64,000 nucleotides of DNA from Nymphaea colorata (taxonomy: Eukaryota; Streptophyta; Magnoliopsida; Nymphaeales; Nymphaeaceae). Location: assembly GCF_008831285.2 (NCBI RefSeq), contig NC_045151.1, positions 10,406,571 through 10,470,570 on the forward strand, given 5' to 3'. Every line of letters starts with the position of its first letter. Position 1 is the stretch's first letter. Both the position numbers and the translations under genes were made by a program. Below are positions 23,872 through 64,000 of this stretch, one piece after another. The notes beneath the pieces are model-generated. The model saw only the letters and a program-made list of their open reading frames with translations, did not search any database and was not told where the DNA came from.

Positions 23872-24033
23872 ACGGCGACCCCCGGTAGTCCGGCGGGGAT
23901 GGCCAACCCCCGACCGCCGTGGCGCCGGATGGGACGAGTCTTCGGAAGATGAGAGGGCTATCGCCCCTTCCTCTTCTCCTTCTTCGTCTCTTCTGCAAAT
24001 TAACAGCTCGAATTTATCAACAGATCATCCGTA

Positions 24034-24939
24034 ATGGTGAATAAGGGGAGCAGTCGGAGAATGGGACGTCGGAAGATTGAAATAAAGAAGATTGAGGACA
24101 AAGACAAGCGTCACGTGTGCTTCTCGAGGCGGCGGAACGGCCTCATGAAGAAGGCCAGCGAGCTGTTCATCCTATGCGGTGCTGAGATTGCCGTAATTGT
24201 CTTCTCCCCAACCGGCAAATCCTACTCATTCGGCAGCCCCTCCGTGCACTCGGTCGTCCACCGATTTCTCAATCTATCGCCCCCGTATTCTTCCCTCCCC
24301 ATCCGGCGGACGTTGGATGCGGACCCTGCTACCCACCAATCCAGCACCATGCGTGAGATCAACCAGCAGCACGACGGACTCTTCCAGCAGGTCGAGGAGG
24401 AGAGAAAACGTCGGGCATCGCTGCAGAAGCTGCAGGACAAGACATGCAATGCGCAGGCGATCGACGGCTGGGATGCAGACCTGAACAACCTCGACCGCAG
24501 CCTACTGGACGACCTGCTTCCGGAGGAGTTGAAATCGACGCTAACGGGGCTCGATGAGGAGCTCGTGCTTAGGACGCCCGGTAACACCTGCATTGGATTT
24601 GATGCCAGATTGACTGCCCTTCCCCCTCTTCCTCCTCCTCCTCCCCCTGCTTCCGAGCATCTTGCCTCTTCCTTTGTCAGTACTAGTGGCTATGATTTTA
24701 AGGCTAATGATGGCAACCCATTGTACTTGCCAATGTTCGAACCGGCCAACTTCGATCATGGCTTCACCACCGGTGGCCTTAACAGCCAGATCGACATCGG
24801 GAGCTCCTTCTCCAGCGAAGAAGATGATGCCTACACCATTGATCTCCCTGATTTTAATAATGATGATGGCATCCCCTTGTGTTTGCCAATGTCCAAACAG
24901 GCCAACCCCAATCTTGGCTTCACCACCCGGTGGCCTTAA
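24034..24939 (+). CDS. Type I MADS-box transcription factor, M-alpha (AGL62-like), C terminus frameshifted
   Basis: The frame opens at 24034; a second ATG at 24061 begins exactly at [10 protein letters not shown] and may be the true start. The MADS domain has the M-alpha signature ([38 protein letters not shown]). A charged coiled-coil-like region and a C-terminal part with two copies of a 52-codon repeat (LPM..., FTT, QIDIGSS) follow. In the first repeat the DNA reads TTCACCACCGGTGGCC; in the second TTCACCACCCGGTGGCC, one C more at 24926-24928. That moves the frame to TAA at 24937-24939. The expected continuation remains open in another frame to 25036. The gene is intronless. M-alpha proteins regulate female gametophyte and endosperm development, often dimerising with M-gamma partners such as the one at 13.3 kb. 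The MADS domain is intact, so function is still possible. Confidence 0.88.
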
Positions 24940-37740: not shown

Positions 37741-40225
37741 TTCCCCTCCTTCTGCCGGGCGACAGGAGGGCGCGGGGAAAGGGGGTCGTGAGGGGGGGGG
37801 GGGGGGGTGGTTGGGGGTGGGGAAGGGGGTCGGGAGGGCAGGCCGGGCTGGGCCGGGTCCGGGTCGGGCCCGGCTGAGCGGCCTGACAGGCCGGCCCTTA
37901 CCCGGCCGGGCTGGCTCGTCCCGGCCCGGCCCAATGCTCAGGCCTACTCAATGTCATCACCTATGTCACATAGGTATGGGTACGGGTGCCGGTGCTGGTA
38001 CGGGTACGGACCATTTTTAAAAAACTTGGGTATGGGAGTACGGCCGTACACACACATTCACATATACATATATATGTTAAAAAATTTCAAACAGAATAAT
38101 ATATTCGCACATATATATATCCAAAATTACAAACAAAATAACATATTGTCATATTCATAAATCATAATCTAAAATTTATCAGTCATTCCAACTTATGTTT
38201 GAAAAGCACTTAGCAAAAGAGCTGCAACACAGAACCAATAGAAACAGGGATCATTCTAAATAGACGAATCCTCTCACGAAACGATATATCATATATCACA
38301 ACAATAACTAGGGAAGACACAGAGATGCAAAATCTGCAAGAGGAGACTCAAACATGTCTCAACATGAAAGTTGTTTGACCTCTTAATCAGAAAACGACTA
38401 TCAATTAGCCAAACAACGGATACTAAAATCGATAATAAACACAAAAACAAAAACTAGAACCGTCTGCAACAAATGTACAAAAAATTATAATGAGGAACAA
38501 AAATAGAAAGTAAAATCATAATGAGGAACAAAAGGAACAGAAAAAACAGACGCCCTGCGCTGTCTGCCATCGCCGACGGCGAACGTAGGGGAGGGAAAGG
38601 TGGTCAGGAGGGCGGGTCGGGCCCGGGCCGGGCTAAGCAGCCCGACAAGCTGGATTGGGCTGGTCCGTCCCGGCCCGGCCCAATGCCCAGGCCTACTCAA
38701 TGTCATCACCTATGTCACATAGGTACGGGTACGGGTGCCAATGCTGATACGGGTACGAACCATTTTTAAAAAACTTGGGTACGGGAGTACGGCCGTAAAC
38801 ACACATTCACATATACATATATATGTTAAAAAATTTCAAACAGAATAACATATTCGCACATATATATATCCAAAATTACAAACAGAATAACATATTATCA
38901 TATTCATAAATCATAATCCAAAATTTATCAGTCATTCCAAATTATGTTTGAAAAGCACCTAGCAAAAGAGCTGCAACACAGAACCAATAGAAAATCCTCT
39001 CACGAAACGATATATCATATATCATAACAATAACTAGGGAAGACGCAGAGATGCAAAATCTGCAAGAGGAGACTCAAACATGTCTCAACGTGAAAGTTGT
39101 TTGACCTTTTCATCAGAAAACGACCATCAATTAGCCAAACAACGGATACTAAAATCGATAATAGACATAAAAACAAAAACTAGAACCGTTTGCAACAAAT
39201 GTACAAAAAATTATAATGAGGAACAAAAATAGAAACTAAAATCATAATGAGGAACAAAGGGAACAGAAAAAACAGATGCGCTGCGCCGTCTGCCATCGCC
39301 GGCGGCGAACGCAGGGGAGGGACAGGCGGTCGGGAGGGCGACGGGAGGAGGGGGGAGGGGGAAGGGGGTCGAGAAGGTGACGGGAGGGGGTAGGGGTTCG
39401 GGAGGGCGGGGGGAAAGGCGGTCGATGACGGGGAAAGGCGGTCGGGAGGGCGGGTTGGGCCCGGGCCGGGCTGAGCGGCCTGACAGGCCGGATCGGGCCG
39501 GCCCTTACCCGGCCGGGCTGGCCATTACCCGGCCGGGCTGGCCTGTCCCGGCCCGGCCCAATGCCCAGGCCTACTCAATGTCATCACCTATGTCACATAG
39601 GTACGGGTACGGGTGCCGGTGCTGGTACGTGTACAGACCATTTTTAAAAAACTTGGGTACGGGAGTACGGCCGTACACACACATTCACATATACATATAT
39701 ATGTTAAAAAATTTCAAACAGAATAACATATTCACACATATATATATCCAAAATTACAAACAGAATAACATATTGTCATATTCATAAATCATAATCCAAA
39801 ATTTATCAGTCATTCCAACTTATGTTTGAAAAGCTCCTAGCAAAAGAGCTACAACACAAAACCAATAGAAACAGGGATCATTCTAAATAGACGAATCCTC
39901 TCACAAAACGATATATCATATATCACAACAATAACTAGGGAAGACACGGAGATGCAAAATCTGCAAGAGGAGACTCAAACATGTCTCAACATGAAAGTTG
40001 TTTGACCTCTTAATCAGAAAACGACCATCAATTAGCCAAACAACGGATACTAAAATCGATAATAGACACAAAAACAAAAACTAGAACCGTCTGCAACAAA
40101 TGTACAAAAAATTATAATGAGGAACAAAAATAGAAACTAAAATCATAATGAGGAACAAAGGGAACAGAAAAAACAGACGCCCTGCACCGTCTGCCATTGC
40201 CGGCGGCGAACGCAGGGGTGGAGCC
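37741..40225. mobile_element. Three-plus tandem units of GC-rich/AT-rich TIR-element sequence
   Basis: Units start CTCAATGTCATCACCTATGT at 37947, 38696 and 39574 (spacings 749 and 878 bp). Each opens with CTATGTCACATAGGTA(C/T)GGGTACGGG, the same terminus family as the element at 3574-4371. An AT-rich body follows, then a GGCGGCGAACGCAGGGG-type GC-rich tail ending CCGGCCCAATGCCCAGGCCTA (CCCAATGCTCAGGCCTA in the first). That last motif, read on the other strand (TAGGCCTGGGCATTGGGCC), resembles plant hAT termini. Unit 1 is preceded by part of another GC-rich tail that abuts the broken HRQ1 exon. The third unit ends at about 40225. Unequal crossing-over or nested insertion could have produced the array. 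No transposase is seen. Confidence 0.75.
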
Positions 40226-40687: not shown

Positions 40688-41716
40688 CTAGAATCGTTGC
40701 TTTGTTAATCCTTTTGTAAATAAGTCTGCAACTTGTTCATCTGTACGAACATAAATAGGTTGAATCTCATTGTCTTCCACCTTTTGTCTAACAAAGTGTT
40801 GATCAATCTCAATGTGCTTTGTTTGACCATATTGTATGGAATTAAAGGCAATGTTAATAGTGCTTTGATTATCGCACATTAACATTGACGTTTTAATCTT
40901 TTCTCCAATGTCTTCTAGCAAATGTCTAACCCATATAACTTCAGCAGCACCCACAGCCATGCATCTGTATTCAGCTTCAGTGCTGGATCTTGCTACTGCC
41001 TTTTGCTTTCGACAACTCCAAGACACAAGATTACATCCAATGAAAATACAAAAACCAAAAATGGACTTTCTTTGATCGGGATCTCCAGCCCAATCTGCAT
41101 CTGTGAATGTCATAAGTTGATGTCCAATAGTTATATTTTCACTATTACCATAAACTAAGCCATCTCCTGCTGTCCCTTTAAGATATCTTAATATTCTTTT
41201 GACAGTATCCATGTGAGTATCTCTAGGTGCATGCATAAATTGAGATATTTGATTCACAACATATTTAATATCTGGTCTAGTAAATGTAAGATATTGAAGT
41301 GCCCCAACAATACTTCGATATTGCGTAGCATCTTCATATAACTCCCCATCATGAGCACTTAGTTTTTGATTTATAACACTAAGAGTTCCAACAAGCTTAC
41401 ATTCAGACATACTTGACTTTTTCAGCAGATCCAACGTGTATTTCTGTTGCGTCTGCGCAATGCCCGCCTGTTCACACACCTTGGCGAACTCGAGAAAGAG
41501 GAACTTGCCTCCCCGATCGGTCCTGAGCGTCTTGATGCAACACCTGCACGCGTTCTCGGCTAGCGCTTTGATCCTCATGAATGTTGAGCATGCCTGGTCT
41601 TTATTTCTGAGCACGTACAACCATATCCATCGAGAGAACTCATCAATGATTAACAAGAAATAACTACTACTAGCAGGAGTGGGTGGTGTGATCAAACCAC
41701 AAAGATCAGCATGCAC
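40688..41716 (-). pseudogene. Copia integrase/RNase H in-frame deletion fusion (342 aa)
   Basis: Residues 1 to about 90 match the copia integrase core: ADLCG near the start, then DEFSRWIWLYVLRNK and LRTDRGGKF, carrying two catalytic Asp positions of the D,D35E core. At about residue 92 the sequence jumps to the end of the reverse transcriptase (QQKYTLDLLKKSSM) and continues through RNase H with TDADWAG, STEAEYRCMA and CDNQSTINIA to HIEIDQHFVR and DLFTKGL. The integrase Glu, the integrase C-terminal region and nearly all of reverse transcriptase including its catalytic YVDD are missing. The join is in frame, so the frame stays open for 1 kb. This is deletion debris, not a natural fusion enzyme, unless transcription is shown. 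Confidence 0.85.
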
Positions 41717-41724
41717 GAGTTAGA

Positions 41725-42360
41725 GGGCTCCTTCGCTTGATAGTTGGCTGCCGATGGGAACGGCTGTCTCGTCTGCTTTGCCACCAAGCACTCCCGACAT
41801 AACTGAGCGGGGTGAGAGATCGGTGGTATCTCAGTTGCCATCTTCTTGTTTATAAGCATCTTCATTGCTTTAAAGTCACATGGCCAAGACGAGCATGCCA
41901 CAGCCATGCTAGATCCTCGATGTTTGCCAGGAGACACACTGGCCTTGCAATCTGCAGCTCAATGTGATAGAGACTATTTGGTTTGTGTCTCACCTTTATG
42001 ACCAGCGGCCATGAATTTTTTACGAACATCTCCAGCTCGTCTTCATCCATAACCACCTTGTGGTCTGCCTTGATGAGTTGTTCAAGACTCACGATACTCC
42101 TGCGAAGCCTCAGGATATAATATACTTTCTGGAGCAGCTATTGATAATCATTTTTGCATCTAAAAAGAATCGAACCCTTACCACTGAAGAGTTGTCGTTG
42201 AACTTCACCTTGCCAGTGATTGCCTCGTCCAACTCGTGAAACTTGACTTTGTCTCCAGTCATGTGGTTGTTAGCACTGTTATCCAGATACTATATGTCAG
42301 TAGTTTTCATGCCGTTCTCAGTCCTGTGCAGTTCCGGCCATACCTGCTCTTCATTCATGA
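41725..42360 (-). pseudogene. Copia protease and GAG-pre-integrase region, frameshifted
   Basis: The minus strand encodes LDNSANNHMTGD at the protease active site (family form DSGA or DNGA..NHMTG; the Asp is kept, the Gly is Ser). The GAG-pre-integrase segment (WLWHARLGHV, then CRECLVAKQTRQPFP) lies in different frames around 41870. A further one-base loss near 41725 separates it from the downstream integrase frame. Confidence 0.8.
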
Positions 42361-42373
42361 GGATGACATCCTG

Positions 42374-43299
42374 TCAATCTAGCCATTCTGGTTGTTCAAG
42401 TGCTGCGAACACCACTTTTTCCAACTCTGCAAGTAGCAGGGTTGGCTCGGTGTCGTTAGCTTGTGTGAGATGTGCCTCCTCTTTCTTCTTGGGAACCTTG
42501 TAGCGGTTCATGTAATGCCCCAATTCGTCACAATTGAAGCAATATATGTGACTTGTCACGACCACCACCCCTGGAGCCATCTGCATTGTCCTTGAGTGGG
42601 AAGTTGCCGCGACCACCTCTGTCGCGTCCACATCCACGCGGATGCGAACCCCTCCTTCCCCGTGAGCCTTCTCCTTTCGGGTCAATGATGGGTCGCCACA
42701 GCTTCTCATCTGCCGTGCCTCCCACTCGGCCTGAGTGAGAAGTAGTTGAGCATTGCTGTTGCCACCAGTACTGAATGCTCGGGGACAAGAACGTTCTTCG
42801 TAGGTCTTGAGTCGTCCCACGACCTCCTCAAATAGCATAATCTCGAGGTCACAAAACTACTCTATTCTGGTGATTACGCTGAGGAATCGATTTAGAACAG
42901 TGTCAAGTAACTTCTTCCTAGGGTGGCGTCGCTCAGGGTTCCCCCCAAGTTGGCATACTTGACGGACATCCCGGTGAGCCTACACCACATACTGATCCAA
43001 CGACTCTCCTTCCTTCATTCGCATGGCATCAAAGAGCTCTTCAACATCTGCAGGTGCACATTCCTCACGCAATCTACTCCGACGAATCTCGTCTTGAGGC
43101 AGTCCCAGACCTCCTTCACTGTCGCCTTATTCGCCACCTGCATTAGGAGATCCTCCGGGAGGGCTTGGAGAAGATGCGACCTGGCCTTCTTGTCCTTCCT
43201 CATGTCGACAGCCACACCGGCTACCGGCTCGACCGCCTCCCTATCGCCTTGGTCCCCCATCATCGCCTGGACCATAATTATGGTCAACAACACAAACAA
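42374..43299 (-). pseudogene. Copia gag, split over frames
   Basis: The N-terminal part (43015-43299) has the UBN2 pattern with ALPEDLLMQVANKATVKEVWD; the next part (42374-42838) has RLKTYEER and a zinc knuckle at about 42480-42540. The knuckle reads CFNCDELGHYMNRY: the last Cys of the C-x2-C-x4-H-x4-C motif is replaced by Tyr. The two parts lie in different frames. Confidence 0.8.
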
Positions 43300-43310
43300 G
43301 CTTTGTATTT

Positions 43311-44584
<1,274 letters not shown>

Positions 44585-44775
44585 AATTATTTCTTCCTTT
44601 GCCATTTTCAGCTTCTCAATGGATTGACAAAGACCCACCATCGTCTTATTGCTAATATTCTTACATTGTATATAATTGCCTATCTCATGGAGTCTTGGGT
44701 GCAGCTGACCAACTGTCTTCCCAAAGTCCACATCAAGTGAAGCACAAGACCATGTTATACCTCATTCATTTTGCA
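44585..44775 (-). pseudogene. MAP65 exon fragment
   Basis: The minus strand reads CASLDVDFGKTVGQLHPRLH, then KNISNKTMVGLCQSIEKLKM, close to the conserved (L)CAVLGLDF..TV.E(V/I)HPSL and ISN.T...L stretches of plant MAP65 proteins, which bundle antiparallel microtubules in the phragmoplast and spindle midzone. Only this exon-sized piece is present. It is the best-preserved of five related copies (see 50.2, 50.6, 59.3 and 59.7 kb). Confidence 0.65.
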
Positions 44776-45123
44776 TATAACCTTATCATGTCTGTCTGTC
44801 TGTCTCTTTACATTCTACTAATATATATATACGTATATATATATATATAATCAAATGGCTAAAAACTGAAAGTTGTCATTGAATAACAATCACAATTAAC
44901 AGCATTGGCAATGATTTATGGTGTCCCTTTTGCCTTCTTCATTTTTCAAAAATATTCCTTATTCTACCATGAATTTGGAAGAGGTATGTAGTTTCCCCTC
45001 CTATCATCCCAAGGATTTTCAGATCCAGCTTCCGAGTAGAAGATATGGACCCAAGTTCTAGTGGACCTACTATGAGAAACCCATGCCCTATGAAAAAAAA
45101 GGTGGATTTACCGCCAGCCTCAA

Positions 45124-48640: not shown

Positions 48641-49131
48641 TACAAGTATGTTATAAGAGTTATTTTTCTAATGAACAAGAAGAACTTTTGTTAGAACTGT
48701 ATAAATTTAATTTTAAGAATTCTTTAAATCCGTGTAGCTGGTCAACTGCAAGTCTGTGAACCGAAAATTTTTTAGTGACTTGAACGTTTGACACATAGTT
48801 AGATTTCCCTACAATTTTTTAGTGGCAACCGTTTGTTTTGCAGCTGTTGATTTGTATCAAGTTTTTGTCGCTAGTGTCAACGGTCAAATGGCACAATGGT
48901 GATGGTTCTTTTCTTGAAGATCAATTTCAATTTTTTTTGTTCAAAGTATAAAGAATAATGATTTTGAGAAGTTTCTATCAATTACATAATTCTCATAATG
49001 TAAACAATTCATTAGCAGCAAAATCTACTTAAATGTCATTTAATGAATCTCACTTTTTCTCTCAATATGTATGTGTGTATTTGTGTGTATGAATGTGTGT
49101 GTGTGTGGGTATGTTTCTCTCTCTCTCTTTT

Positions 49132-49207
<76 letters not shown>

Positions 49208-49365
49208 CATTGGTAGGTATGAGACTCATAAACTATAGTTGTAGACATTGATTTTCCAAGATGGACAGTAGCAAACAATTCAATAAAATTATTTTAATAA
49301 TCTAGCATCAATGTGTAACTTTTCTCCCAATTTTTTTCAACCATTTATATTAGAAACATTATGTG

Positions 49366-49416
<51 letters not shown>

Positions 49417-49659
49417 GGAGAGAGAGAGAGAGATTGGTAGGCATGAGACACATAAACAATAATTTTAGCCATTGATTTGTTGAAGATGGACAGCTGAGAA
49501 CAATTCAAGAAGGGTATTTTAATAATCAAGCATAAGGAGTAACTTTTTCTCTCAAATTTTTTTTTACCATTTAGATTGGAAAAACCAGCGGTCAAATTGA
49601 TTTTTTATGGGGTTTGCACCTAAGGGTTTAGTACCTACCAATTTCTCTGACACACAATA

Positions 49660-49691
<32 letters not shown>

Positions 49692-50224
49692 GCATTCAAT
49701 GCCAAAAATATTAATATTAAAATCTAACCATTTCTATTACTGATATCAAATACATTGTGACAAAACTTTTATTTATTCATCTGTATAGCTTCCAAATTTG
49801 ATTAAATTGCCGCACTAGTGCCAGAACTATATCGCCATTGTATAAGTCTGACATCTTAGTTTTTAAACAATGTAGAATGTGAGAAGTTATTTTCCCAACT
49901 CTATTCTCTCAAATAAACCATAAGCATAAGTTGGGAAAATTTAGACACAAATACTTGAAAGTTGGAATGTACAATTGGTAGTGGTAAATGGTAAGGGGCC
50001 TCCAATGTCAACATTAATATTGAAACCTAAAATCATCATTCTTGTCATATATAAACGAAAATGTCAACAATGATATTGGAACCTGAAATTTCCATTCTTG
50101 TTTTTGATACATCAGAACTTGAGTTTTTTTTACTTATGTGTATAATGTTGACTGAAATGTTATTTTCCAATACCTTACTCCTCACATATATTTTTTCTAT
50201 AAATTTGACTTTTGAAGGACAAAT

Positions 50225-50515
50225 CCAAGTATCATCTTGCTAAGAGTTATCGCAAGTTTAGCATTTGACACTAATGTGCAGCTGTATATCCTTCAGTCAG
50301 ATTGTCTTCATAAAGTTCTTCAATATGTGAATGAGGTAAGTGGCATTTTTTCTTCACTTGATTTAGACTTCAGAAAGATATTTAGTCAGGATTACCGAAG
50401 CTTCCATCAGATAGGTAGACATGATGTAAGAACATTAGCAATAATACGGTGATGAGACTTTCTCAGTCAATTGATATGATGAAAATGGAAAAGAAAGCAA
50501 AAATTAAAAAGGTAT
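50225..50515 (+). pseudogene. MAP65 exon fragment, left arm, plus copy
   Basis: The plus strand encodes LQSDCLHKVLQYVNEVSG followed without intron by SSLDLDFRK, matching RLRKVLEFV..VHDLCAVLGLDF of MAP65. Downstream the frame decays into stops. Confidence 0.65.
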
Positions 50516-50599
50516 GTAGATTAATTCTATTGTACTGTCAGGATTGTAATTTGGGATCCTGTATCTGAATGACATTTTTTCGTCGCTATTGGAACCATG

Positions 50600-50850
50600 G
50601 AACTTGTTGGACTCACCCAATTGAGAAAAAGAAGCTACTGGTTTTGAGGTTACATAGTTCCTGCAGCAGCGATGAAACATTCAATGCTTTTGCTTACAAG
50701 TACAATAGAATTATACATACCTTGTTAATTGTTGCTTCCTTTGCCATTTTCATCTTCTCAATTGATTGTCTTTTTAACATTGCTTGGAGGCAGCTGACTA
50801 ACCTTCTTCCTGAAATTCAATGAAGTGAAGCACAAAAGCAATGTTATACC
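50600..50850 (-). pseudogene. MAP65 exon fragment, left arm, inverted copy
   Basis: The minus strand repeats the LCFTS(L)NFRKKVSQLPP and IEKMKMAKEATINK parts of the exon seen at 44.6 kb, with a deletion between them. Together with 50225-50515 it forms a small nested inverted repeat. Confidence 0.55.
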
Positions 50851-51654
50851 TCACTTATTTTGCATATAAAATAACCTTATCTTGTCTGTCTCTTTCTTTA
50901 CATTCTACTAAATTGCCTTCACACACACATACATATATATTGGTGATGATTTGTGTTGTCTTTTTTGGCTTCTTCAGTTCTCCACATACATGATTGAATA
51001 AATTAAAGTGGCCACCACGCGAGCGGACATACAAAAAATCGAGGAGAAAAATGGAGGCTCATTTGTAGGAATGTATCTGAAATAGGAGACTCAAATGAAA
51101 ATTCTAAAAAGTAAGGAGGATAAATGGCTTATGCGAAGAGGGGATGATGCATCATGCCCACTTGTAGGATTGTCTAAAATAAATCTCTAACTTATTGTTA
51201 CACCTGTTAGACTTGTAGGAAGTGAGAAGAACGGTTGTAGCTGCTACCGCATAAGCATTTCTTTCAAGATGCCTTCAATGATCTTAGACTTTAGAAGATT
51301 TGAATCCTTGTTTACCTTATGCCTCAAATTTAAATATCTCAAGCTGGAGGGGAGGGAGGCTTACTTGAGATCTATGTATTTGAATATGTAATGCTTACAA
51401 TTTTTGGTATGGATAATGGCATCTCATTTTTTTATGGATAATGGTATACAATTGACATTTGTCCTTTTCTTTTTCCATAAATTGCTTTTTCTTTTCTTTC
51501 AAAAGTACTAATGGCATCTAATTACAATTGATCCTTTCTATCAAGTCATGACCTTTTCATAAATCAGGTCAGGTTTCAGTTTCTGAAGTTCAGAGCAAAT
51601 AAGGACAGATAAGTCAGATAAGGACAGAGCAAAGTCAGCAAAGTCTTCTTTTGA

Positions 51655-52577
51655 AGATCTCTTTAGTGAGCTCAGGAAGATGAGCCTCTAGAAGTCCTAC
51701 TGTGCACAATCCCGAAGAATCAGCCGGAAAGAAAAATAAATGCAATAGCCTAATGAAGATGGGCAATATCGGTCAGCCATCAACTTTGAGTTTGCAGATG
51801 GACAAGAAGGGTGAGAATGGCAGTTTCCACTCCTTGGGAGGTACCCAAGATTACTGGAATCGGGGTGTTGGGCATCAAGATTCCACTGACCTGTCAAAAG
51901 TGGCCCCAATCCTTGGGGACATCCAAAAAATTCTTCCATTTCCCCTTGATCCGAGAATAGCGACATGAACGACATGTCCTGCCCAAGCCAAGGAGCTGAC
52001 TCCGAAGAGCCCTGACAAATGATGATTGAGATGAGATTCGGCATTTTTGTAACCATGGCTTCCATTTGGTTGTAACCAACCCACTACGACAGATATTGTA
52101 GAAAGAAATAATAGAAAAAGAGCTCCAGTAGAAAGATCTTCATAGGTGCACAGGCCGATTGTATACCATCACTAAGAAAGACCGGAATAAGCAAGATTCA
52201 CTGGGCCGAGAGCATACCCTCGAGTCAATGCTTCTACAGCCAGTTGACCAAAATGAGGATCCCAAATAGGTTTAGCAATGGGTCTGACATGGTTGGGGTG
52301 GTCTTGTACCCATGACTCAAAATTTCCTTGCCAAGCCACATGAAACAGATTGCCGGAAGTCCACAGAATCTAAAGCCATAATGCCTTTCAAATCCTCCTA
52401 GCCAGATTCTTTCTTGCTAAGAGCTAACTGCCCGAAGTTAGAATTAGGAGCTCAAATCCTCTGAGCAGTCATCATGACTCTCTTTGTCATGTGTGGTAGC
52501 AATACCAAACCAAATACGACGAGTAGTGGGGTCCCGAGCTAAGCCTTGGCTAAACCTTGGAACTTATCTAAAGCCAT
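51655..52577 (-). pseudogene. psaB: Plastid psaB fragment (photosystem I P700 apoprotein A2), nuclear copy
   Basis: Minus-strand frames encode RFSQGLA, then [48 protein letters not shown] and DLLEAH, the N-terminal half of PsaB, through several frameshifts. The start ATG is at 52575-52577, 25 bp downstream of the psaA stop, as in plastids. A 36-bp copy of the psaA/psaB junction (52567-52602) is repeated at 52370-52405 inside psaB. The rest of the gene is absent. Confidence 0.88.
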
Positions 52578-52602
52578 AATGCCTTTCAAATCCTCCTAGC
52601 CA

Positions 52603-52885
52603 TTATCCTATAGCAAGAATTCTTGCTAAGAAGAATGCCCATGTTGTGGCAATTCCACCCAGAAGGTCATGGGTGATTCCCACAACACTGTCCTTGTACA
52701 ATGCTCAAGGCTAACGGCGGAGTAGCAGGAGCTACTTTTCGTTTGTTATGAGCCCAGATGATGGATTCAATGAGTGATTGCCAATAACCACGACCACTCA
52801 GTATGGACAGAATCATTGATGGATCCTGAGAGCGGAAGGTCTTTCTGAGGTCTTGTTCTGCCAGAAGATCGAGATGCACTCGTCT
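52603..52885 (-). pseudogene. psaA: Plastid psaA 3' fragment (photosystem I P700 apoprotein A1), nuclear copy
   Basis: The minus strand encodes [31 protein letters not shown] and, one frame over, [18 protein letters not shown] with TAA at 52603-52605. This is the C-terminal end of PsaA including the start of its last membrane helix. Frame changes show it is not functional. Confidence 0.88.
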
Positions 52886-53169
52886 GAAATGCCATCGCTC
52901 GCGTACAAAACTCTGACTGGGACTCTTCCCCCCACCGTCATTCCTATGGTTGAAGAACGCAAACGAGGTTGGTTTTTCTCTTAATAATGTTGGTCAGATC
53001 GACTGCCTCACTAATCTAATATGAACCGTAGTGCTCATTGGAATGTGATCAAATGTTCCAATCCATCAAGCAACCAACCTCTGACCTATACATCGACTAT
53101 CAAGCCTCTGAGATAGGTGTGCCGCTTGTTTCTGGACTCATTTCTGTTGTACTCTTGATGGAATTGATC

Positions 53170-53240
53170 TGGGATGGAAGGATTAGAACCTCCAAGTAAG
53201 AGAACCAAAACCCATTGCCTTACCACTTGGCCACACCCCA
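53170..53240 (-). pseudogene. Plastid-type tRNA-Gln (UUG) copy, decayed
   Basis: The minus strand reads TGGGGTGTGGCCAAGTGG, an anticodon loop GTTTTGGTT with TTG, and ends CCTTCCATCCCA. Compared with the usual plastid trnQ, most changes I can name are C to T or G to A, including in the T loop (GTTCTAATCC for GTTCGAATCC is a G to T exception), so folding is weakened. Confidence 0.75.
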
Positions 53241-54335
53241 TTTCTCTTTCTATTCGAAACTAAGAAAAACACGTGGTTGTTCGTCCTGCCCTTTATTCTT
53301 TGGAATGGCAATTGTATGCCATTAGTGCTGACCATATCATAAATGCAATTGTATGCCATTAGTGCTGACTATTACAAAAAGCTAAACAAGAAGGCTTTTA
53401 GTATTGTCATTGTATCTTTTACACAAGAATTTAATTGCCTCAAAGGGCATAGCAAAACTGGTCGGGTTTGGGACCTGTGAAAATGCAAGTCTTTAGTTCG
53501 GTTTACATGGGTATTATACTTATGCGTCTTAAGTGGTGGAACATGGTAGCTAAGTCGAAGGGTGCAGTTCTGCCATAGTTGATGCTGATGCAGTTCATGA
53601 CCCCTAAGGTAGGGGCACAAAGAGTCTTTTGGGCCTCTTTTCAGGATGGAAAGTTGCTAATTACCTCTCACTCACTCAAACAAAACATAAGACTTCCATT
53701 TTTTTAAAAAAATAATCAATCAAGCACACCTCTCATTATGTGTAGGTGGGCGGTTGTAAGTGCATATTATGAATGCCAGCATTTGTGCTCAAATGGAAAC
53801 GAGCAAATCAAAAGGTTATCAAGCTTGGCCTTTGAGCGGGCCATTAAAGGCCAAGTGAGTTAAATGCACTGGTTTGTGCATGCAATACATATACCCCAAA
53901 AAGAAAACATGGTAGGGGTTGCAATATTGTGGAAATTATCTAAAAATATATATATATTTAGTCTTTTAATTTCTACAAAGAGTTTTTCATAATTCAAAAC
54001 AGAAGTATGTATTTGGTAAAATAAAATCAAATGAAGGCATACGTGCCTTCACTAGATATTGCAATGCTGTTTTTTCTTAGTTATGAAAACATGGTGAAGG
54101 ATTGGAACCAATGATGCATAATTGGGTTCTTTCAATATTGACAAATGGTTCATTAATTAGACAGAATGGATGTAGGTTGGTGTGCCATGCAGTGTGCTCG
54201 GGGCCAAATATAGTATTCGAACATGTAACCTAAGATTGTTGGGCCCTTACAAGAAAATTGCCCCGTCATTTTTCCTTTTTTATTTTTTTACAGGTGTTTG
54301 GCAACATGAGTTTGCCAAAAAGAGCCTATACCCTG

Positions 54336-54541
54336 GGGCGGAGCCAGAAATTTTTCATGAGGAAGGCCGAATTAAAGTTTCTAAATTTTGACACGGGCCG
54401 AAATATCTTTTTTCAAAATCTTTATATAGGACAAGCAAAATTTTCTAAAATTTACAAGAAAACTTTTAGAAAGAATTTTTTTAGGCAGGCCTCCAGAAAG
54501 ATTTTTTTTGAGGCAGGCCTCCCCTTTCCTCCGCCCTTGCA
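54336..54541. mobile_element. About 200-bp MITE-like element, GGGGCGGAGCCAG family
   Basis: The left end is CTGGGGCGGAGCCAGAAATT; the right end is CCTTTCCTCCGCCCTTGC, an approximate inverted match. The same family recurs at 62664-62826 (CAGGGGCAGAGCTATGAATT ... GGCTTTGCCCCTAC), with shared inner words AAATTTTGAC and AAAATCTTTATA/AAAACTTCTATA. No target duplication was established. Confidence 0.55.
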
Positions 54542-54954
54542 TGTACCAATGGTTATGGTAGGGTGATATCAAGAGAAATGTGTGGCTATCAAATCTGGGT
54601 TTTTTTTAAAAACTCCATGTACAATGTACAATGTTTGATGTTTTAAAAATGTATAATATAAAACATAGTGTTCTTCTTATCTAACACTGCTTGATGGTGC
54701 TTGATAGCATAATATGAAGAACATAAATGCCTTTTTTGGACTCTAGGAATGGGATATAAAAAGAGCATACGCAAAACATGATGTTGCTTCTTTGCTAGGA
54801 AGCTAAATCAGCATTTGGTAAGAGGAACATTGGGTTCTCTTCAACGAATCAAGGATTTCTTGCAGGAAGATGCCCTCCACATGCTTTGGAGGCAATTTTC
54901 TACCAAGCAACATGTTGATGGAAGAATTAGAGGAAACATGGATGCAGGGGAAGG

Positions 54955-55440
54955 GTAGAGCCATTAACTCCTTCACCGTCTTCACCAGTAGTGGTGGATC
55001 CGAGTTTGAAGTGTTTCTCAGCTTCAGAGGCGAAGACACCCGATAGTTTTTCTTTGAACCTCTTTATGAGCCTCAAGGAGCATGGTATTTCCTCCTTCAT
55101 AGACAGCGGAAAGTTGGAAAAGAGGGACAATATCAAGAAATTGTTTGAATGCATACAGCGGTCCAAGATCTTTGTCCTCATCTTATCCAAATGCTTTGCA
55201 GAATCGAGATGGTGCTTGAAAGAGGTGACCAAGTGTTGAGTGCGGGAAGGAGATAATTTCAGTGTTATTTGGCGTGGAACCTTCCGACGTCGCAACCAGA
55301 ACTGGCCTTTCAAATCTGCATTTAAGGATCATCAATCCAACAAGAAGAAGGATCAAGTGGAGGTGAGGAACTGGAGGGAAGCATTGAAGAAAGTCGGAAA
55401 CCTCTCTGGCTTCAATCCGATCAAGGACATGAATGGGTAT
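54955..55440 (+). pseudogene. TIR domain of a TIR-NBS-LRR resistance gene, broken
   Basis: Successive frames encode GSEFEVFLSFRGEDTR (TIR motif 1), a stop TAG at about 55042-55044, then SLKEHGISSFIDSGKLEK, SKIFVLILSKCFAESRWCLK (TIR motifs 2 and 3), and after another frame change CGKEIISVLFGVEPSDV and WREALKKVGNLSGF. This is an almost complete plant TIR domain, including the alphaA Glu region, the NAD+-cleaving signalling module of TNL immune receptors. At least two frame changes and a stop inactivate it, and no NB-ARC or LRR sequence follows. Confidence 0.85.
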
Positions 55441-55444
55441 ATGT

Positions 55445-55467
55445 CTCTCTCTCTCTCTCTCTCTCCC
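55445..55467. repeat. (CT)n microsatellite after TIR relic
   Basis: CT run immediately downstream of the TIR pseudogene, at the place of the first TNL intron. Confidence 0.9.
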
Positions 55468-56639
55468 ATGGACAATTAAAGTTTAATCAAATCTCTCATT
55501 CTTTTCTCTCTCTCCAAATTTAAAGTCTAACCAGGCGCATGATTTGTTGTCTATAGCTTTTCAGTTGCTTCCATTCATATCTTATTCATATGCTTATTTT
55601 CTTCTTGAGTTGTCCCAACATCATTTTTGGCTAGTATTTTAGATATTTTTCCTTTAAAATCATTATCTTATCAGATATATTAATCAAACACATCCTTAAA
55701 GCTACTAACAGTTAAAAGTGAGAAAATTTAAGACGTGATCTTTGTGTTGAAAAATTGACTACTATATAGATATATATATATATATTGGCCGATTGGTCAG
55801 TCAATTGATAGGTCACAAGGTTCAACACTCGTTTTTTCTCTTTGGCGTAAAAATATTTATAATATTCCATTCTAATACTTCACAAGGTAAGGCATATTTA
55901 ACTTGAAAATATAAATCATAAATTGTTCTCCTTTTTAAAAAAATATTTTTATAAGTAACAGCTAGTTAAGCATGTAATGAACTTAATAAATGTTTCATAA
56001 TCAATGGACGTAACAGCTAGTACATATATGTGTTCCAAAATATTTTAGGTATTGTTTTCATTTCTTTAATTTTTCATGGCAGTAAAAAACATAAAAGCTG
56101 TAAAGCTACTAAACGAGCTTAGAGTCTTTGATTGATAGTTCTAGTACTTCACAAGGTATGACATAATTTTTCCTTGAAAATATAAATTATAAATTGTTCT
56201 CCCATTTGAAAAATTTATTTTATAAGTAACACCTCATTAACCATGTAAGGAAATTAATAAATATTTCATAATCAATGAACACACACACACACATATATAT
56301 ATAAATATATAGAGAGGCATGTATATCAAAAATATTATAGATATTGGTTTCATTTCTTTATTTTTCATGGCAGTAAAAAACATAAGTGCTTTAAAGCTAC
56401 TAAACAAGCTTAGAGTCTTTGGTCTGTTAAAAGTTATAAGAGTTTTAACTAGCCAGATTTAATTATATAACAGAACACTGATAATGTGTATACAAGTGTT
56501 AAAAAAAAATATGCCAGTTATTTTTCTAATGAACAAGAAGAAAATTTATAAAATAATTTGTTTGAATTAAAGTTAGGTATCTCAGCCCTTGGCAGCAGGT
56601 AAATGAGCAGCTCACGTCAATCGTCATCATCTTCTTCCC

Positions 56640-56850
56640 TTAGGAGAGGGAGAGCGAGGTATTGGTCTCTCTATTTCACCCGACTTTTTCCAATATTCTG
56701 CTGTCTATGAAGGTGGAAACCCTCATAAAGATGTCCAATGAAACACTTTGGGGTGTCTTCGCCCCTAAAGCTCAGAAACACTTCAAACTTGGATCCACCA
56801 CTCTTGGTGCAGACGGTGAAGGTGTTAATGGCTCCACCCCTTTCACTGCC
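56640..56850 (-). pseudogene. Inverted partial copy of the TIR domain relic
   Basis: The minus strand carries the same PLTPSPS...VVDPSLKCF out-of-frame reading as 54955-55030 and then decayed TFIDSRILEKVG. It is the inner end of the right palindrome arm. Confidence 0.7.
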
Positions 56851-59187
56851 TCTGTGTTTCCTCTAATTCCTCCATTAACATTTTGGTTGGTAGAAAATTG
56901 CCTCAAAAGCATGTGGAGGACATCTCCAGCAAGAAATCCTTGATTCGTTGATGGAAGACATGACCAAAGAGAACAGAATGTTCCTCTATCCAAATGCTGA
57001 TTTTGCTTCCTAGCAAAGAAGCAATATTTCATGTTTTGCATGTGCTCTTTTTATGAAATGCATAACATGGGCTAAGGCAGGCAAATTAAGGTTGTCATAT
57101 CCCATTCCTAGAGTGTCCAAAAAAGGCATTTATGTTCTTCGCATCATGCTATCAAGCACTATCAAGCAGTGTTAGATAAGAAGAACACTATGTTTTACAC
57201 TATATATTTTCAAAACATCAAACATTATACATGGACACCAGATTTGATAGCCACACATTTCTATTGATATCACCCTACCATAACCATTGGTACAAGCCCT
57301 TTTTGGCAACCTCATGACCTTATTCTATTCTAGTGCCGAATAAAAAATCTATCAAGGTCACTTGTATGGGATCTTGACTCCCCAACGAACACGCTACACC
57401 TCATTCACAAAGCAAATTTTAAGCAATGTAGATTGACATAACAGAAAGAAACTGTTTGGATGTCTGAACCAACCAACACAGCCCCTTAACACAGATTCAC
57501 CTTTAATGATAAAATTAGAGTAAAAGGAAAGCCCCATTAGTGGTGTTTGGCATCGTAAACACTAGTTTATTGTTTCATAAATCTATTGCAAATATTATGA
57601 TAGATTGATGAAACACAAAAAATAATCTTTCATAAAATCTATCCTAATTATTAATACAAATTCATGAAACTCATGTTGCCAAGGACCTCTAAAAAAAATA
57701 AAAAAGGAAAAATGGCAGGGCAATTTTCTTGTAAGGTCCCAACAATCTGACGTTACATGTTCCAATAATGTATTTGGCCCCAAGCACACTACATGGCACA
57801 CCAACCCACATCCATTCTGTCTAATGAATGAAGCATTTGTCAATATTGAAAAAGCCTGATTACGCATCTTTGGTTCCAATCCTTCACCATGTTTTCATTA
57901 CTAAAAAAAAAAACAGCATTGCTATATCCAGTGAAGGCATGTATGCCTTCATTTTATTTCATTTTAGCAAATACATACTTCTGTTTTGAATTATTGACCA
58001 CAAAATGTAAATATGTGCCTCCACATTTCCTATAAAATAGATTGTCTTCAACCAAAGCAGGTTATGTACGCCATGCAGTGCACGAAATTCTCGTGCGCTA
58101 ATATAGGTCATTACAAAAATACTCTTGGTTAATAAAATAAAGCTTTTTATAGGGACAGAAAAACTGAAATATATTAAAAGACACAAAAAAATATATTTTT
58201 TAGATAATTTCCACAATATCGGAACTCCTACCATGTTTTCTTTTTGGCATATATGTGTTATGTGCACAAACCGGTGCACTTATCTCACTGAGTCTTTAAT
58301 GGCCTGCTCAAAGGCCAAGCTTGATAACCTTTTTGATTTGCCCGTTTCCATTTGAGCACAAATCCTGGCGTTCATAATCTGCACTTACAACGGTCTGCCT
58401 AAACAAAATGAGAGGTGTGCTTGAATGATTGATTTTTTTTTTAATGAAACTCTTATGTTTTATTTGAGTGAGTGGGATGTAATTAGCAACTTACCATCTT
58501 GAAAAGAGGCCCAAAGCGTCTCCACGCCCCCTGCCTTAGGGGTCATGAACTGCATCAGCATCAACAATGGCAGAACTGCACCCTTGAACATAGCTACCAT
58601 GTTCCACCACATAAGACACATAAGCATAATACCCATGTAAATCAAAACAAAGACCTCCATTTTCACAGGACCCAAACCCGACCAATTTTGCTATGCCTTT
58701 TGAGGCAACTGAATTCCTGTGTAAAAGATACAATGACAATACTATAGTTTTGTAAGCTTTACATCTTCAAATACATAGATCTCAGGTCAGCCTCCCTCCC
58801 CTCTGGCTTGAGATCATTAAATTTGAGGCATAAGGTAAACAAGGATTCAAATATTCTACAGTCTGAGATAATTGAAAGCATCTCGAAAGAAATACTTATG
58901 CAGTAGCAGCTACGATCCTTCTTCTCACTTCCTACAAATCTAACAGGTGTAGCAATAAGAGATTTATTTTAGACAATCCTACAAGAGGGCATGATGCATC
59001 ATCCCCTCTAGGTATAAGCTATTTATCCTCCATACTTTTTAGAATTTTCATTTGAGCTTCCTATTTCAGATACATTCCTACAATAAGCCTCCATTTTTCT
59101 TCTCAATTTTTGTATGTCCGCTCACGTGGTGGTCACTTGAATTTATTCAATCGTTTATATGAAGAAATGAAGAAGCCAAAAAAGACA

Positions 59188-59225
<38 letters not shown>

Positions 59226-59289
59226 GTGATTTAGTAGAATGTAAAGAAAGAGACAGGCATCATAAGGTTATTTTTATATGCAAAATAAG

Positions 59290-59480
59290 TGAGGTTTAAC
59301 ATTGCTTTTGTGCTTCACTTCGTTTTAATTTTGGGAAGACGGTTAGTCAGCTACACCCATGCTCCATGAGACAGGCAATTATAAACAATATAAGAACATA
59401 AGCAATAACACAGTGGTGGGTCTTTGTCAATCCATTGAGAAACTGAAAATGACAAAGGAAGCAACAATTAACAAGGTGTA
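59290..59480 (+). pseudogene. MAP65 exon fragment, right arm, plus copy
   Basis: The plus strand has NFGKTVSQLHPCSM and, in another frame, VFVNPLRN-type decay of the exon seen at 44.6 kb. It is the inverted partner of 50600-50850. Confidence 0.55.
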
Positions 59481-59689
59481 TATAATTATATTGTACTTGT
59501 AAGCAAAAGTACTGAATGTTTCATCGCTACTGTAGGAACTATGTAACCTCAAACCAGTGGCTTCTTTTCCTCAATTGGGTGATTCCAATAAGTTTCATGG
59601 TTCCAATAGCGATGAAAAAATGTCGTTCAGCAACATGATCCCAAGTCATAGTTCTGACAGTACAATAGAATGAATCTACAAGCCTTTTG

Positions 59690-59965
59690 AATTATTGCGT
59701 TCTTTTCCATTTTCAGCTTCTCAGTGGACTGAGAAGGTCCCATCAGCGTGTTGTTGCTAATGTTCTTACATCGAGTCTATCTGTCTCATCTTGGGTAATC
59801 CTAATTAACTGTCTTCCTAAAGTCTAAATCAAGTGAAGAACAAAGGCCACTTACCTCATTCACATATTGAAGAACTTTATGAAGACAATCGGACCGAAGG
59901 ATATACAATGGAGTGACATTAGTATCAAATGCTTAAAACATGAGGTCACTCTTAGCAAATTCAGA
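59690..59965 (-). pseudogene. MAP65 exon fragment, right arm, minus copy
   Basis: The minus strand reads FDTNVTPLYILRSDCLHKVL, QYVNEVSG and SSLDLDFRKTV, the inverted partner of 50225-50515 and the fullest version of the 5' part of the exon. Confidence 0.65.
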
Positions 59966-61035
59966 ATGACACTTTGATTTTTTCTTTAAAAATCAAATTT
60001 ATAGAAAAAATATATGTGAGCAGTATCATATTGGAAAATAACATTTTAGGCAACATTATACACATAAGTCAGAAAACATAGGTCCTGATATATCAAAAAC
60101 AGAAGTGGCAACTTCAGGTTCCAATATTGTTGTTGACATTTTCATTATATATATGACAAGAATGACAATTTTAGGTTTCAATATTATTGTTGACATCAGA
60201 GGCCACTTATCATTTACCACTAATAATTGTACATTCCAAACTTCGAGTATTTGTGTCTAAATTTTCCTAACTTATGCTTGTGGTTTATTTGAGAGAAAAG
60301 AGTTGGCAAAAGGACTCCTCATATTCTACATTGTTTAAAAACTAAGATGTCATTGACTTATATAACAGCAATATAGTTCTAGCACTAGTGCAACAAATTA
60401 TTCAAATTTGGAAGCTATATAGACAAATAAAAAAAGTTTTTGTCACAATGTATTTGATAGCAGTAATATAAATGTTATATTTTAATATTAATATTTTTGG
60501 CATTGAATGCTATATAAATATATTTTGTGTGGGAGAGAAATTGGTAGGCACTAAAGCCCTAGATGCAAACCCTATAAAAAATCATTTTGACCACTAGTTT
60601 GTCCAATATAAATGGTTGAAAATAATTGAGAGAAAAGTTATTCCTTATGCTAGATTATTAAAATCCCTTCTTGAATTGTTCTCGACTATCCATCTTCAAA
60701 AAACCAATGGCTAAAATTAGTGTTTATGTGTCTCATACCTACCAATGTCTCTCTCTCTCCCCACCCACCCACCCCCCCCGCCCATATATGTACACACACA
60801 CATAATTTTTCCAATATAAATGGTTGGAAAAAAATGGGAGAAAAAGTTACACGTTTATGTTAGATTATTAAAATACCCTTATTGAATTTTTCTCAGCTGT
60901 CCATCTTGAAAAAATCAGTGGCTAAAATTATAGTTTATGGGTCTCATACCTACCAATGTCTCTCTCTCTCTCTTGATATATATATATATATATATATCAC
61001 ACAGACAAATGCACACAGACATATAGAGAGAAAAA

Positions 61036-61640
61036 ATGAGATTTTCACAGGGACGACGAGCCGGAACCCACCAAAAACCCGGCCACTCAATGGAGTCCTT
61101 CCTTTGTGAAGTACTCTGCAAGTGAGCTTCACCATTATGCTTTAAAGAAGACATTAACTGATACGCAATTGACCTTTTGTCTGCTCATTAATGGCTTGTA
61201 AGTCATGAAAATGCCAATTTGAGGTGCAAAGGTAGTATAGTTTATCTTTTCTTCTAAATTTAGATGTAGTGATGTAACGAACGTGAGGTGATGATGGAAT
61301 CAGATCTGTGCAGAAAGAAAGTTCGTCATGTTTTTGGGTCAGGATCATAACGAGCTTTCTTTCTGTGCAGATCTGATTCTATCATCACCTCATGTTCATT
61401 ACATTACTACATCTAAATTAAAAAAAAAAAGATAAACTGTACTGCCTTCGCACCTCAAATTGGCATTTTTATGACTCGCAAGCATTAATGAGTAGACAAA
61501 AGGTCAATTGCGCATCAGTTAAAGTCTTCTGTAAAGCATAATGGTGGAGCTCACCTGTAGATGACTTCAAGGGAAGGACTCCATTGAGTGGCCTGATTTT
61601 TGGTGGGTTCCAGCTCGTCATCCCCTCAAAAAGATTAAAT
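61036..61640. repeat. Palindrome of about 600 bp, centre about 61338
   Basis: Arms of about 260-290 bp are near-perfect reverse complements: CAGATCTGTGCAGAAAGAAA at 61301 pairs with TTTCTTTCTGTGCAGATCTG ending 61375, and GGACTCCATTGAGTGGCC near 61577 pairs with GGCCACTCAATGGAGTCC near 61080. The loop is about 40 bp. It is fold-back-element-like, with no coding capacity. Confidence 0.88.
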
Positions 61641-61792
61641 GGCAATGTCGATCTCGTGTGAATTGCTGGATCCACTTCCACAGATAAAACATATTGGATC
61701 TTGAGAAATTGCCAAACAGTTTCTCCATCTTTCTCAAGATTGAGACTGGATATACAGATAACATCATTGTGAAGAGACACTAAGGAATGCAT

Positions 61793-62657
61793 TTTAAAAA
61801 ATTTCACGTGGAAGCTTCTTTCACAGCACATTTCGTTAAGATTAGTATCCCGTGTTTAGAAGGCGTAATCCTCTGAAACACTGTTTACGCTTTAAGACTA
61901 TTGTGTGAGAAGGGCAACAGTTTCATCACCTTCGACGGTGATGGTAAAAAAAATAATAACAAGAAAGTGTGCAATTAAAATCACAAAAAATGACATATGT
62001 CAAGTGTAAGCCATGAACCATATATCGTATAACATAGAATTTTTTAAGAAAAGCAAGTGCAAGAAGTCTTTCAAAAAAAAAGCTCGGCATAGCCAGGTTT
62101 TCGTGAAGTGTTCCATTTCCAAAGTCAAGTGATGCTGTTGATGCTACAATGATCGATCAAACGTGATTGTGAAAAGTAGATGTTGGGAGGAACGAGGAGA
62201 CTTGGTGAATGCCCATTGATGAGGGGGCCTAGCGCCGGGGTCTGGTCAAACTTTCTGGACAAGTGTTCATGCTCAGCCTTTGCTTTGACTGCCCGTCACA
62301 TATGGAGGCTTCGATTTGCCAGTTCGAGTCCATATGATATATGGTTCATGGCTTTCATTTGACATTTGTCATTTTTTGTGATTTTAATTGCACACTTTCT
62401 TGTTGTTATTATTTTTTTTACCATCACCATGGAAGGTGATCTTGCTATTTTAGCAGTACATCACATGCCATCGCTGTAGTAATCCCTGCCTGCCTTGACA
62501 CATATGGACAAGTTACGTATAAAAGGAAACTGTTGCCCTTCTCACACAATAGTCTTAAAGCGTAAACAGTGTTTCAGAGGATTACGCCTTCTAAACACGG
62601 GATACTAATCTTAACGAAATGTGCTGTGAAAGAAGCTTCCACGTGAAATTTTTTAAC
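61793..62657. repeat. Palindrome of about 865 bp, centre about 62225, with about 280-bp spacer
   Basis: The left arm (61793 to about 62045) and right arm (about 62335 to 62657) are reverse complements: AAACACTGTTTACGCTTTAA pairs with TTAAAGCGTAAACAGTGTTT, and GTGTGCAATTAAAATCACAA pairs with TTGTGATTTTAATTGCACAC. The right arm has an extra stretch at about 62445-62525. The central spacer has no recognised gene. Confidence 0.88.
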
Positions 62658-62663
62658 CATGCA

Positions 62664-62826
62664 GGGGCAGAGCTATGAATTTTTTATTAGAATGGCCAAA
62701 CCATAGTTTTAAATTTTTGACGAGGGTTGAAATTGTTACTTTTTAAAACTTCTATACACGGTAAATGAAATTACATGTAAATTTTTTCTATGACCCCTGT
62801 CGGCCTCCCTGGCTTTGCCCCTACTA
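62664..62826. mobile_element. MITE-like element, same family as 54336-54541
   Basis: It starts CAGGGGCAGAGCTATGAATT directly after the 62.66-kb palindrome and ends CTGGCTTTGCCCCTAC. No coding sequence. Confidence 0.55.
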
Positions 62827-62889
62827 CCATACCTTCACAAACCAATGACTAAAACTTGAGGTCTACTAGAATGCTCAGTAAGATGCTTG

Positions 62890-63445
62890 GATTTGTCCTT
62901 CAAAACCCAAATTAATAGAAAAAATATATGTGAGCAGGAAAGATATTGGAAAATAATGTTTCAGACAACATTATATGCATAAGTAAAAAAAACTCAGGTC
63001 AACATTATATGCATAAGTAAAAAAAACTCAGGTTTCTATGTATTGAAAACCAGAATGGCAATTTTAGATTTCAATATCGTTGTTGACATTTTTGATGTGT
63101 CTATCATGACAAGAATGACAATTTTAGATTTCAAATTATTATTGTTGACATTGAAGGCCATTTATCATTTACCACTACCAATTGTACATTCCAAACTTCG
63201 TGTATTTTTATCTAAGTTTTCCTAACTTAGGCTTGTGCTTTAATAGAGATAATAGAGTTGGCATAAAGGCCCCTCACATCCAACATTGCTTAAAAACTAG
63301 ATGTCATAGATTTATACAATGGGTGACATAGTTTTAGCATTAGTGCAGCAAATTATTCAAATTTTGCAAGCTATATATGCACATGTAAAAAACCTTGTGT
63401 CACAACATATTTGATAACAGTAATGGAAATTTCAGATTTTACTAT
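62890..63445. repeat. Direct diverged copy of 59980-60560
   Basis: The stretch AATAGAAAAAATATATGTGAGC through TATTTGATAACAGTAAT repeats part of the right palindrome arm in the same orientation; a 40-bp subunit (CAACATTATATGCATAAGTA) is itself doubled at 62967-63030. Confidence 0.75.
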
Positions 63446-63446
63446 T

Positions 63447-63460
63447 AATATTTATGAATG

Positions 63461-63492
<32 letters not shown>

Positions 63493-63500
63493 CATTCATA

Positions 63501-63535
<35 letters not shown>
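63447..63535. repeat. Perfect (TA)n-centred palindrome
   Basis: ATTTATGAATGCTAT, a TA run, then ATAGCATTCATAAAT form a perfect inverted repeat; a second TA run follows to 63535. Confidence 0.92.
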
Positions 63536-63539
<4 letters not shown>

Positions 63540-64000
63540 TTGATGATGCGACATTTAATTAATTTCGTTACATGTTTATGAACGTATTATTATAAAATAA
63601 AATTTTCAGAAAGGTAAATGATTTATAATGTATATTTTCATGAAAAAATTATGTCATAGCTTGTGAAGTTTTAGAACAATTATTATTTATATTTTTATGC
63701 CAAAGACGAAAAAAACTAATGTCAAACCTTGTGAATTACCAACTAATTGACCAATCGGCCTATAAATTCGTTCTCATAGTCTTGATCCTCAATCTATATA
63801 TGCTGCAGTTAAATGCGTCATGGCTCCATCCAAGCTCCTTTCAAAAGAGAAGTTAGGATTTCAGTTGATGCAAGAATGAAGCTATTAAATATCTTGAATA
63901 TGTATCACGTGCATCATATTTTCAATTACTTAAATCCATTTTTTAGGTGCCCCTTGTAATCTTGTATTTCTAAAATCGTTTCAATACTGAGATTGAGATT
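63536..64000. other. Repeat-derived non-coding DNA
   Basis: 63550-63740 is an inverted, diverged copy of the 48240-48640 repeat family. The remainder has no recognised feature. Confidence 0.45.

Follow-up and report, generated by a model that had tools for sequence, protein, structure and literature searches.

A palindrome of TIR and MAP65 gene fragments in Nymphaea colorata, most likely an old inverted segmental duplication within a pseudogene array

We analysed a stretch of 64,000 nucleotides of Nymphaea colorata DNA (C14:10406571-10470570, contig NC_045151.1; hereafter the window), in which two facing arms form a large imperfect palindrome; each arm carries pieces of a MAP65 gene, non-coding spacer and an exon for the TIR domain of a TIR-NBS-LRR-type gene. 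The arms are members of a C14 repeat family with about 40 scored copies, and an old inverted segmental duplication, rather than a transposon, is the most likely origin of the palindrome. The genome that we searched comprises 407.8 Mb in 783 contigs, which fits the published size of 409 Mb; the published assembly, from PacBio and Hi-C data, has 804 scaffolds, with 770 placed on 14 pseudo-chromosomes (PMC7015852).

Comparison of the window with itself bore out the palindrome described in the initial annotation: the left arm (49167-55121, a 2.0-kb insert included) matches the inverted right arm (60997-56686) in four BLAST segments (Table 1). With the insert excluded, arms of 3957 and 4312 bases share 84.8% identity over 3863 aligned columns (Kimura two-parameter distance, K2P, 0.171) and contain 30 exact runs of at least 21 bases, the longest of 45; in a control comparison of the left arm with the reverse complement of window positions 1-42000, the eight best matches were just 27-28 bases long. 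The window contains no N letters, so the palindrome centre is not a scaffold gap. The insert said to lengthen one arm to about 6 kb proved to be 51401-53398, present in the left arm only. The limits given for the palindrome stood as far as the arms themselves are concerned, but reverse unit sequence, rearranged and more diverged, extends beyond them: to the right of the window (locus L029) we found the reverse of window stretches from 43.5-48.8 kb, mixed with other unit pieces and reaching about 8.4 kb past the window end. Neither the locus to the left of the window (L030) nor L031 matched the unit stretches.

MAP65 copies on both strands within each arm, as the initial annotation had proposed, were recovered at the DNA level as matches of 76.6-87% identity to the MAP65 gene near C10:16.503 Mb. 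The match extends into an intron of that gene, and the piece therefore derives from genomic DNA. Pfam searches of ten short open reading frames (ORFs) from the MAP65-bearing stretches returned no MAP65, and of three pieces read across their frame break two had no match and the third had two weak, unrelated ones. A genome search with PF03999 gave 17 matches, in genes on C1, C2, C3, C7, C8 and C10 and none on C14. The MAP65 stretches of the window, clearly similar to the C10 gene, which does have PF03999, are fragments and not a gene.

The left-arm TIR domain was readily recognised (PF01582, E 2.7e-13, in ORF 54931-55236), while the right-arm copy, truncated on its centre side, falls under the curated cut-off (E 0.0018) and was identified by DNA identity of 86.5% to an intact-type gene (56714-56974 against locus L015). 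Of the TIR-NBS content originally annotated, the TIR part is thus present in both arms; no NBS part was found, the window giving no NB-ARC match. We compared the window with the neighbourhoods of 20 TIR copies: 15 on C14, of which L019 and L021 share a near-identical block of 6070 bases and so are not independent, four on C2 and one on C1. Frame changes or stops break the TIR copies at all 15 C14 loci, and the fetched flank of each lacks an NB-ARC match, in contrast to the C2 and C1 loci, where all five have the TIR region in an open frame (at L027 across part of it) with NB-ARC matches following. Pfam confirmed NB-ARC in all four loci scanned (L015, L023, L025 and L028); at L027 the NB-ARC match changes frame, and L023 holds an additional, second TIR piece that is broken. 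In the four scanned loci a hydrophobic stretch precedes the open-frame TIR domain, and NB-ARC lies in the next open frame. Among the best 123 of 672 candidates in a genome search with PF00931, which weaker NB-ARC matches could escape, four lay on C14 (0.99, 4.11, 4.13 and 9.70 Mb), none within the arrays. Because the TIR is broken and the fetched C14 flank holds no NB-ARC match, the TIR copies of the window are pseudogene exons. An open TIR frame followed by NB-ARC, the arrangement of a TIR-NBS-LRR resistance gene, is absent from the window, and the suggestion that the palindrome lies near a resistance gene does not hold for these C14 copies; their open-frame relatives are on C2 and C1.

The spacer and MAP65 sequences are concentrated on C14. 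The inner spacer (53989-54313) occurs in 14 of the 15 C14 TIR loci (absent from L017) and in none of the five C2 and C1 loci; spacer and TIR exon share one orientation in all 14, and the window alone carries the spacer in both orientations. In the genome, 69 of 73 inner-spacer matches fell on C14 (best 40 of 105 candidates), the other four being short, 70-79% identical and located on C8 (two), C10 and C12. For the MAP65 piece, 56 of 57 matches fell on C14 (best 40 of 157 candidates), and the remaining one was the C10 MAP65 gene, which served as the positive control. All 131 matches to 49800-51380 were on C14 (best 40 of 224 candidates), in a list that is incomplete, as it missed the C10 gene. 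We took as main copies the 40 matches of at least 400 bits from this last search, dropping 10207068-10207517 as the same copy as its neighbour. They lie in several separate clusters within C14, with eight switches of orientation along it, four of these between neighbours less than 30 kb apart; the closest switch is the window's own pair, at 7.4 kb, and another lies at 7.5 kb. Opposite-facing neighbours are therefore not peculiar to this site. Inverted segmental duplication, one of two origins first put forward, accordingly gains support: paralogous blocks stand in opposite orientation, further homologous copies exist on C14, and reverse unit sequence continues past the window.

Two further observations concern duplication within C14. 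The near-identical pair L019 (9.87 Mb) and L021 (3.97 Mb), 99.5% identical over those 6070 bases, lies in opposite orientation 5.9 Mb apart; from the sequence, this block may have been duplicated very recently or may be a duplicate of the assembly only, and unless it is the latter the pair shows that inverted duplicates also arise recently. In several searches, places near the start of C14 scored almost like those at 3.917-3.922 Mb, which may be the same duplication.

We consider it very probable, on the comparisons given here, that two units of a pseudogenised TIR-MAP65 array, diverged from one another, were brought face to face here by an inversion or an inverted duplication. The main rival, a direct inverted duplication of one unit on site, whose arms would once have been identical and are now old and decayed, would account for the arms facing each other and for a four-base microhomology at the centre. 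It predicts that the arms are each other's closest relatives, and they do not look like sister copies. In a tree built from 11 arms that are full or nearly so, the window's two and those of nine C14 loci, the window's arms were paired in none of 200 bootstrap trees, and enforcing their pairing cost 12.8 log units (approximately unbiased, AU, test, p 0.042). In this set the K2P distance of the right arm from each of the nine other copies is 0.103-0.145, less than the 0.156 that separates it from the left arm; for the left arm, L009 and L026 are closer relatives than the right arm is. Over 49800-51380, three other copies outscore the right arm, which is only the fourth-best match to the left. 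Several points nevertheless weigh on the other side. The arms are not kept apart in every single-segment tree: they pair in 27%, 28%, 8% and 0% of bootstraps, and one of the four best such trees joins them, weakly supported; the AU p is barely under 0.05; the full-arm tree covers just nine of the 15 C14 loci; and gene conversion within the array could wipe out a genuine sister relation. The genome searches scored the best candidates only, so that copies off C14 may exist, and the assembly of such an array may itself be faulty. With both sides weighed, we regard direct duplication on site as unlikely.

At the centre of the palindrome, sequence from two family copies meets. The match to the left unit ends at exactly 56566 in nine loci (L013, L014 and L016-L022; five aligned), and the piece on the right, 56563-56689, matches sequence that lies downstream of the TIR exon at locus L012; L017, L021 and L029 hold shorter matches to this piece, of 49-62 bases. 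Together with the shared bases (Table 1), this gives the join the look of end joining. Such a junction also bears on the possibility that the palindrome centre is an assembly artefact. Tandem arrays are hard to assemble, and the near-identical blocks at 3.97 and 9.87 Mb lend the idea some substance; but the absence of N letters, arms that differ at about 15% of sites and so represent two real copies, and a junction resembling normal end joining make an artefact very improbable.

The initial annotation also saw in the palindrome a possible source of small RNAs, and we considered whether it is a hairpin locus producing small RNAs against the TIR-NBS-LRR family. TIR exon sequence is present in both arms, and the left TIR shares 9-46 of its 592 exact 21-mers with each of the five C2 and C1 loci. 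The idea is also reasonable in kind, given that excerpts of a review describe miRNAs that target nucleotide-binding leucine-rich repeat (NLR) genes as probably having originated from inverted repeats of NLR gene parts (PMC10575705). The window resembles that inverted-duplication origin of MIRNA genes (as set out in the same excerpts) in that part of an NLR gene is present twice in inverted orientation, and differs from it in that its arms, known here from sequence alone, are old, diverged and kilobases long. They differ by about 15%, only 244 of 3937 exact 21-mers are identical between them, and about 1.6 kb separates the TIR parts; such arms would make a poor long hairpin. The right TIR, moreover, shares only 0-4 of its 269 21-mers with each of the five loci, and we hold this role to be scarcely probable. 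Hardly credible, by our estimate, is the related proposal that convergent TIR pseudogene exons on C14 yield double-stranded RNA that tunes the intact C2 TIR-NBS-LRR genes in trans, with the MAP65 pieces as passengers.

The other origin first put forward was a fragment-capturing transposable element (Pack-MULE or fold-back type) with very long terminal inverted repeats, for which a target duplication and further copies with the same ends were the marks to look for. Four loci (L010, L018, L019 and L022) are collinear with the window straight past the outer end of the left arm, and L014 nearly so; that end is thus no end elsewhere. A target duplication was sought, as a shared exact word of at least six bases, at three alternative placements of the ends and was not found, the sole match being a 14-base AT repeat. 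Terminal repeats of one element are expected to be identical at the outset. The window shares with Pack-MULE and fold-back elements the presence of gene pieces between or inside long inverted repeats, and the inclusion of MAP65 intron is what capture at the DNA level would give; it differs from them in lacking element ends, in that no target duplication was found, and in having no strong copies off C14 among those scored. We rejected a transposon with long terminal repeats on its ends, the missing target duplication, the distribution on C14 as far as scored and the phylogeny of the arms, which do not look like each other's nearest kin, and the single orientation of the unit within the fetched 9.9 kb at 14 C14 loci leaves such an element an extremely improbable source.

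The history that we favour, two array units brought face to face, would run as follows. Each unit combines the TIR exon of a TIR-NBS-LRR-type gene with non-coding spacer and pieces of a MAP65 gene, and the units would have spread by unequal exchange and segmental duplication. Two of them would then have been made to converge by an inversion or inverted duplication whose ends were closed by end joining, and their arms would have decayed after they came to face each other; later the left arm would have gained an organellar insert, and a templated patchwork would have formed in the right flank. The palindrome, taken as one unit, would have no function. Plant genomes contain comparable arrays of segmental duplications with resistance-gene pseudogenes, which are similar in their clustered paralogous units, changes of orientation and truncated or broken copies; the C14 copies that we read differ in showing the TIR exon only, joined to pieces of an unrelated MAP65 gene that spread with it.

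The left-arm insert contains pieces of psaA and psaB as well as a tRNA-Gln(UUG) at 53169-53240, besides which Rfam searches at the gathering threshold found nothing. A psaA piece followed by a psaB piece is the plastid order. In having psaA before psaB on one strand, with decayed frames, the insert is like a nuclear plastid DNA insertion; the tRNA-Gln beside them sets it apart, and the insert may have come through a mitochondrial copy. In 23 other loci only scraps of 25-38 bases match it, so it probably arrived after the unit had spread. The patchwork that borders the right arm on its outer side contains pieces of C4:26.5474-26.5481 Mb in both forward and inverted orientation (77-91%), together with one piece like C782:517297-517565 (90%); its stretch 61050-61624 is self-inverted at 86%, and its outer inverted repeats (61794-61924 and 62526-62656) are 131 bases long and identical. 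It looks like templated filler made during repair.

Table 1 Parts of the palindrome and of its flanking units in the window.
Feature	Coordinates	Strand	Evidence
Outer left part of the unit; stretches recur reversed in L029	43523..48813	+	
Further MAP65 inverted pair, left outer unit	44414..44802		74.6% and 80.9% to C10 MAP65 gene
Left arm, outer part: MAP65 pieces and spacer	49167..51400	+	inverted match 60997-58750, 82.7%; 49800-51380 multicopy on C14
MAP65 exon and following intron piece, left arm	50270..50636	+	77.4% to C10 MAP65 gene, E 5.6e-83
Second MAP65 piece, left arm (50699-50768 and 50782-50853)	50699..50853	-	match to C10 MAP65 gene
Insert: organellar (plastid-type) DNA, psaA C-terminal and psaB N-terminal pieces	51401..53398	-	PF00223 in 4 ORFs, E 1.8e-08 to 1.1e-20
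Left arm, inner spacer	53399..54313	+	inverted matches 53399-53970/58744-58173, 87.2%, and 53989-54313/57994-57667, 89.9%
Left arm, innermost part: beginning of TIR exon with the sequence upstream of it	54539..55121	+	inverted match 57297-56686, 76.5%
TIR exon of TIR-NBS-LRR-type gene, broken (frame changes, stop)	54839..55450	+	54839-55697 85.4% to C2 gene L015
Sequence following TIR exon in family copies, left unit	55451..56566	+	nine loci match to 56566
Centre junction, four shared bases TGAA	56563..56566		both sides aligned with family copies
Right unit, piece downstream of TIR exon in L012	56563..56689	-	89.8% to L012:8652-8778
Right arm, innermost part: TIR exon, truncated, with the sequence upstream of it	56686..57297	-	PF01582 E 0.0018; 56714-56974 86.5% to L015
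Right arm, spacer and MAP65 pieces	57667..60997	-	self-comparison and comparison with TIR loci
MAP65 piece, right arm	59290..59513	+	78.6% to C10 MAP65 gene
MAP65 exon piece, right arm	59560..59925	-	76.6% to C10 MAP65 gene
Patchwork with inverted copies, outer edge of right arm	61043..62656		pieces of C4 locus, C782 locus and resident array spacer
Right unit, next outward part	62653..64000	-	matches to L009, L011, L012, L020 and L024 at 78-85%

The palindrome is real but fairly ordinary in kind; what is somewhat unusual is that a TIR exon and MAP65 pieces were amplified jointly as one pseudogene unit, on one chromosome as scored. It shows a piece of an immune-receptor gene and a piece of an unrelated cytoskeleton gene joined into a duplicating unit whose pseudogene copies fill several sites on one chromosome. 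It also cautions against taking every long inverted repeat that carries gene pieces for a transposon. The array could serve the study of how relatives of resistance genes turn over in an early-branching flowering plant. Titles and abstract openings in the literature on Nymphaea colorata, NBS-LRR genes, inverted repeats and MAP65 gave no published description of a TIR-MAP65 array, which is not proof of absence.

Other features lie elsewhere in the window. Two ORFs (13244-14257 and 24004-24936) encode MADS (SRF-TF) domains, and an exon-like ORF at 35419-35730 matches the winged-helix domain of the HRQ1 helicase (E 6.4e-12). Three tandem copies of about 0.8 kb each, with about 90% identity, occupy 37774-40221, and the minus strand at 40691-42856 holds pieces of a decayed Copia-type retroelement with an integrase core, a gag-pre-integrase domain and a weak zinc-knuckle match.

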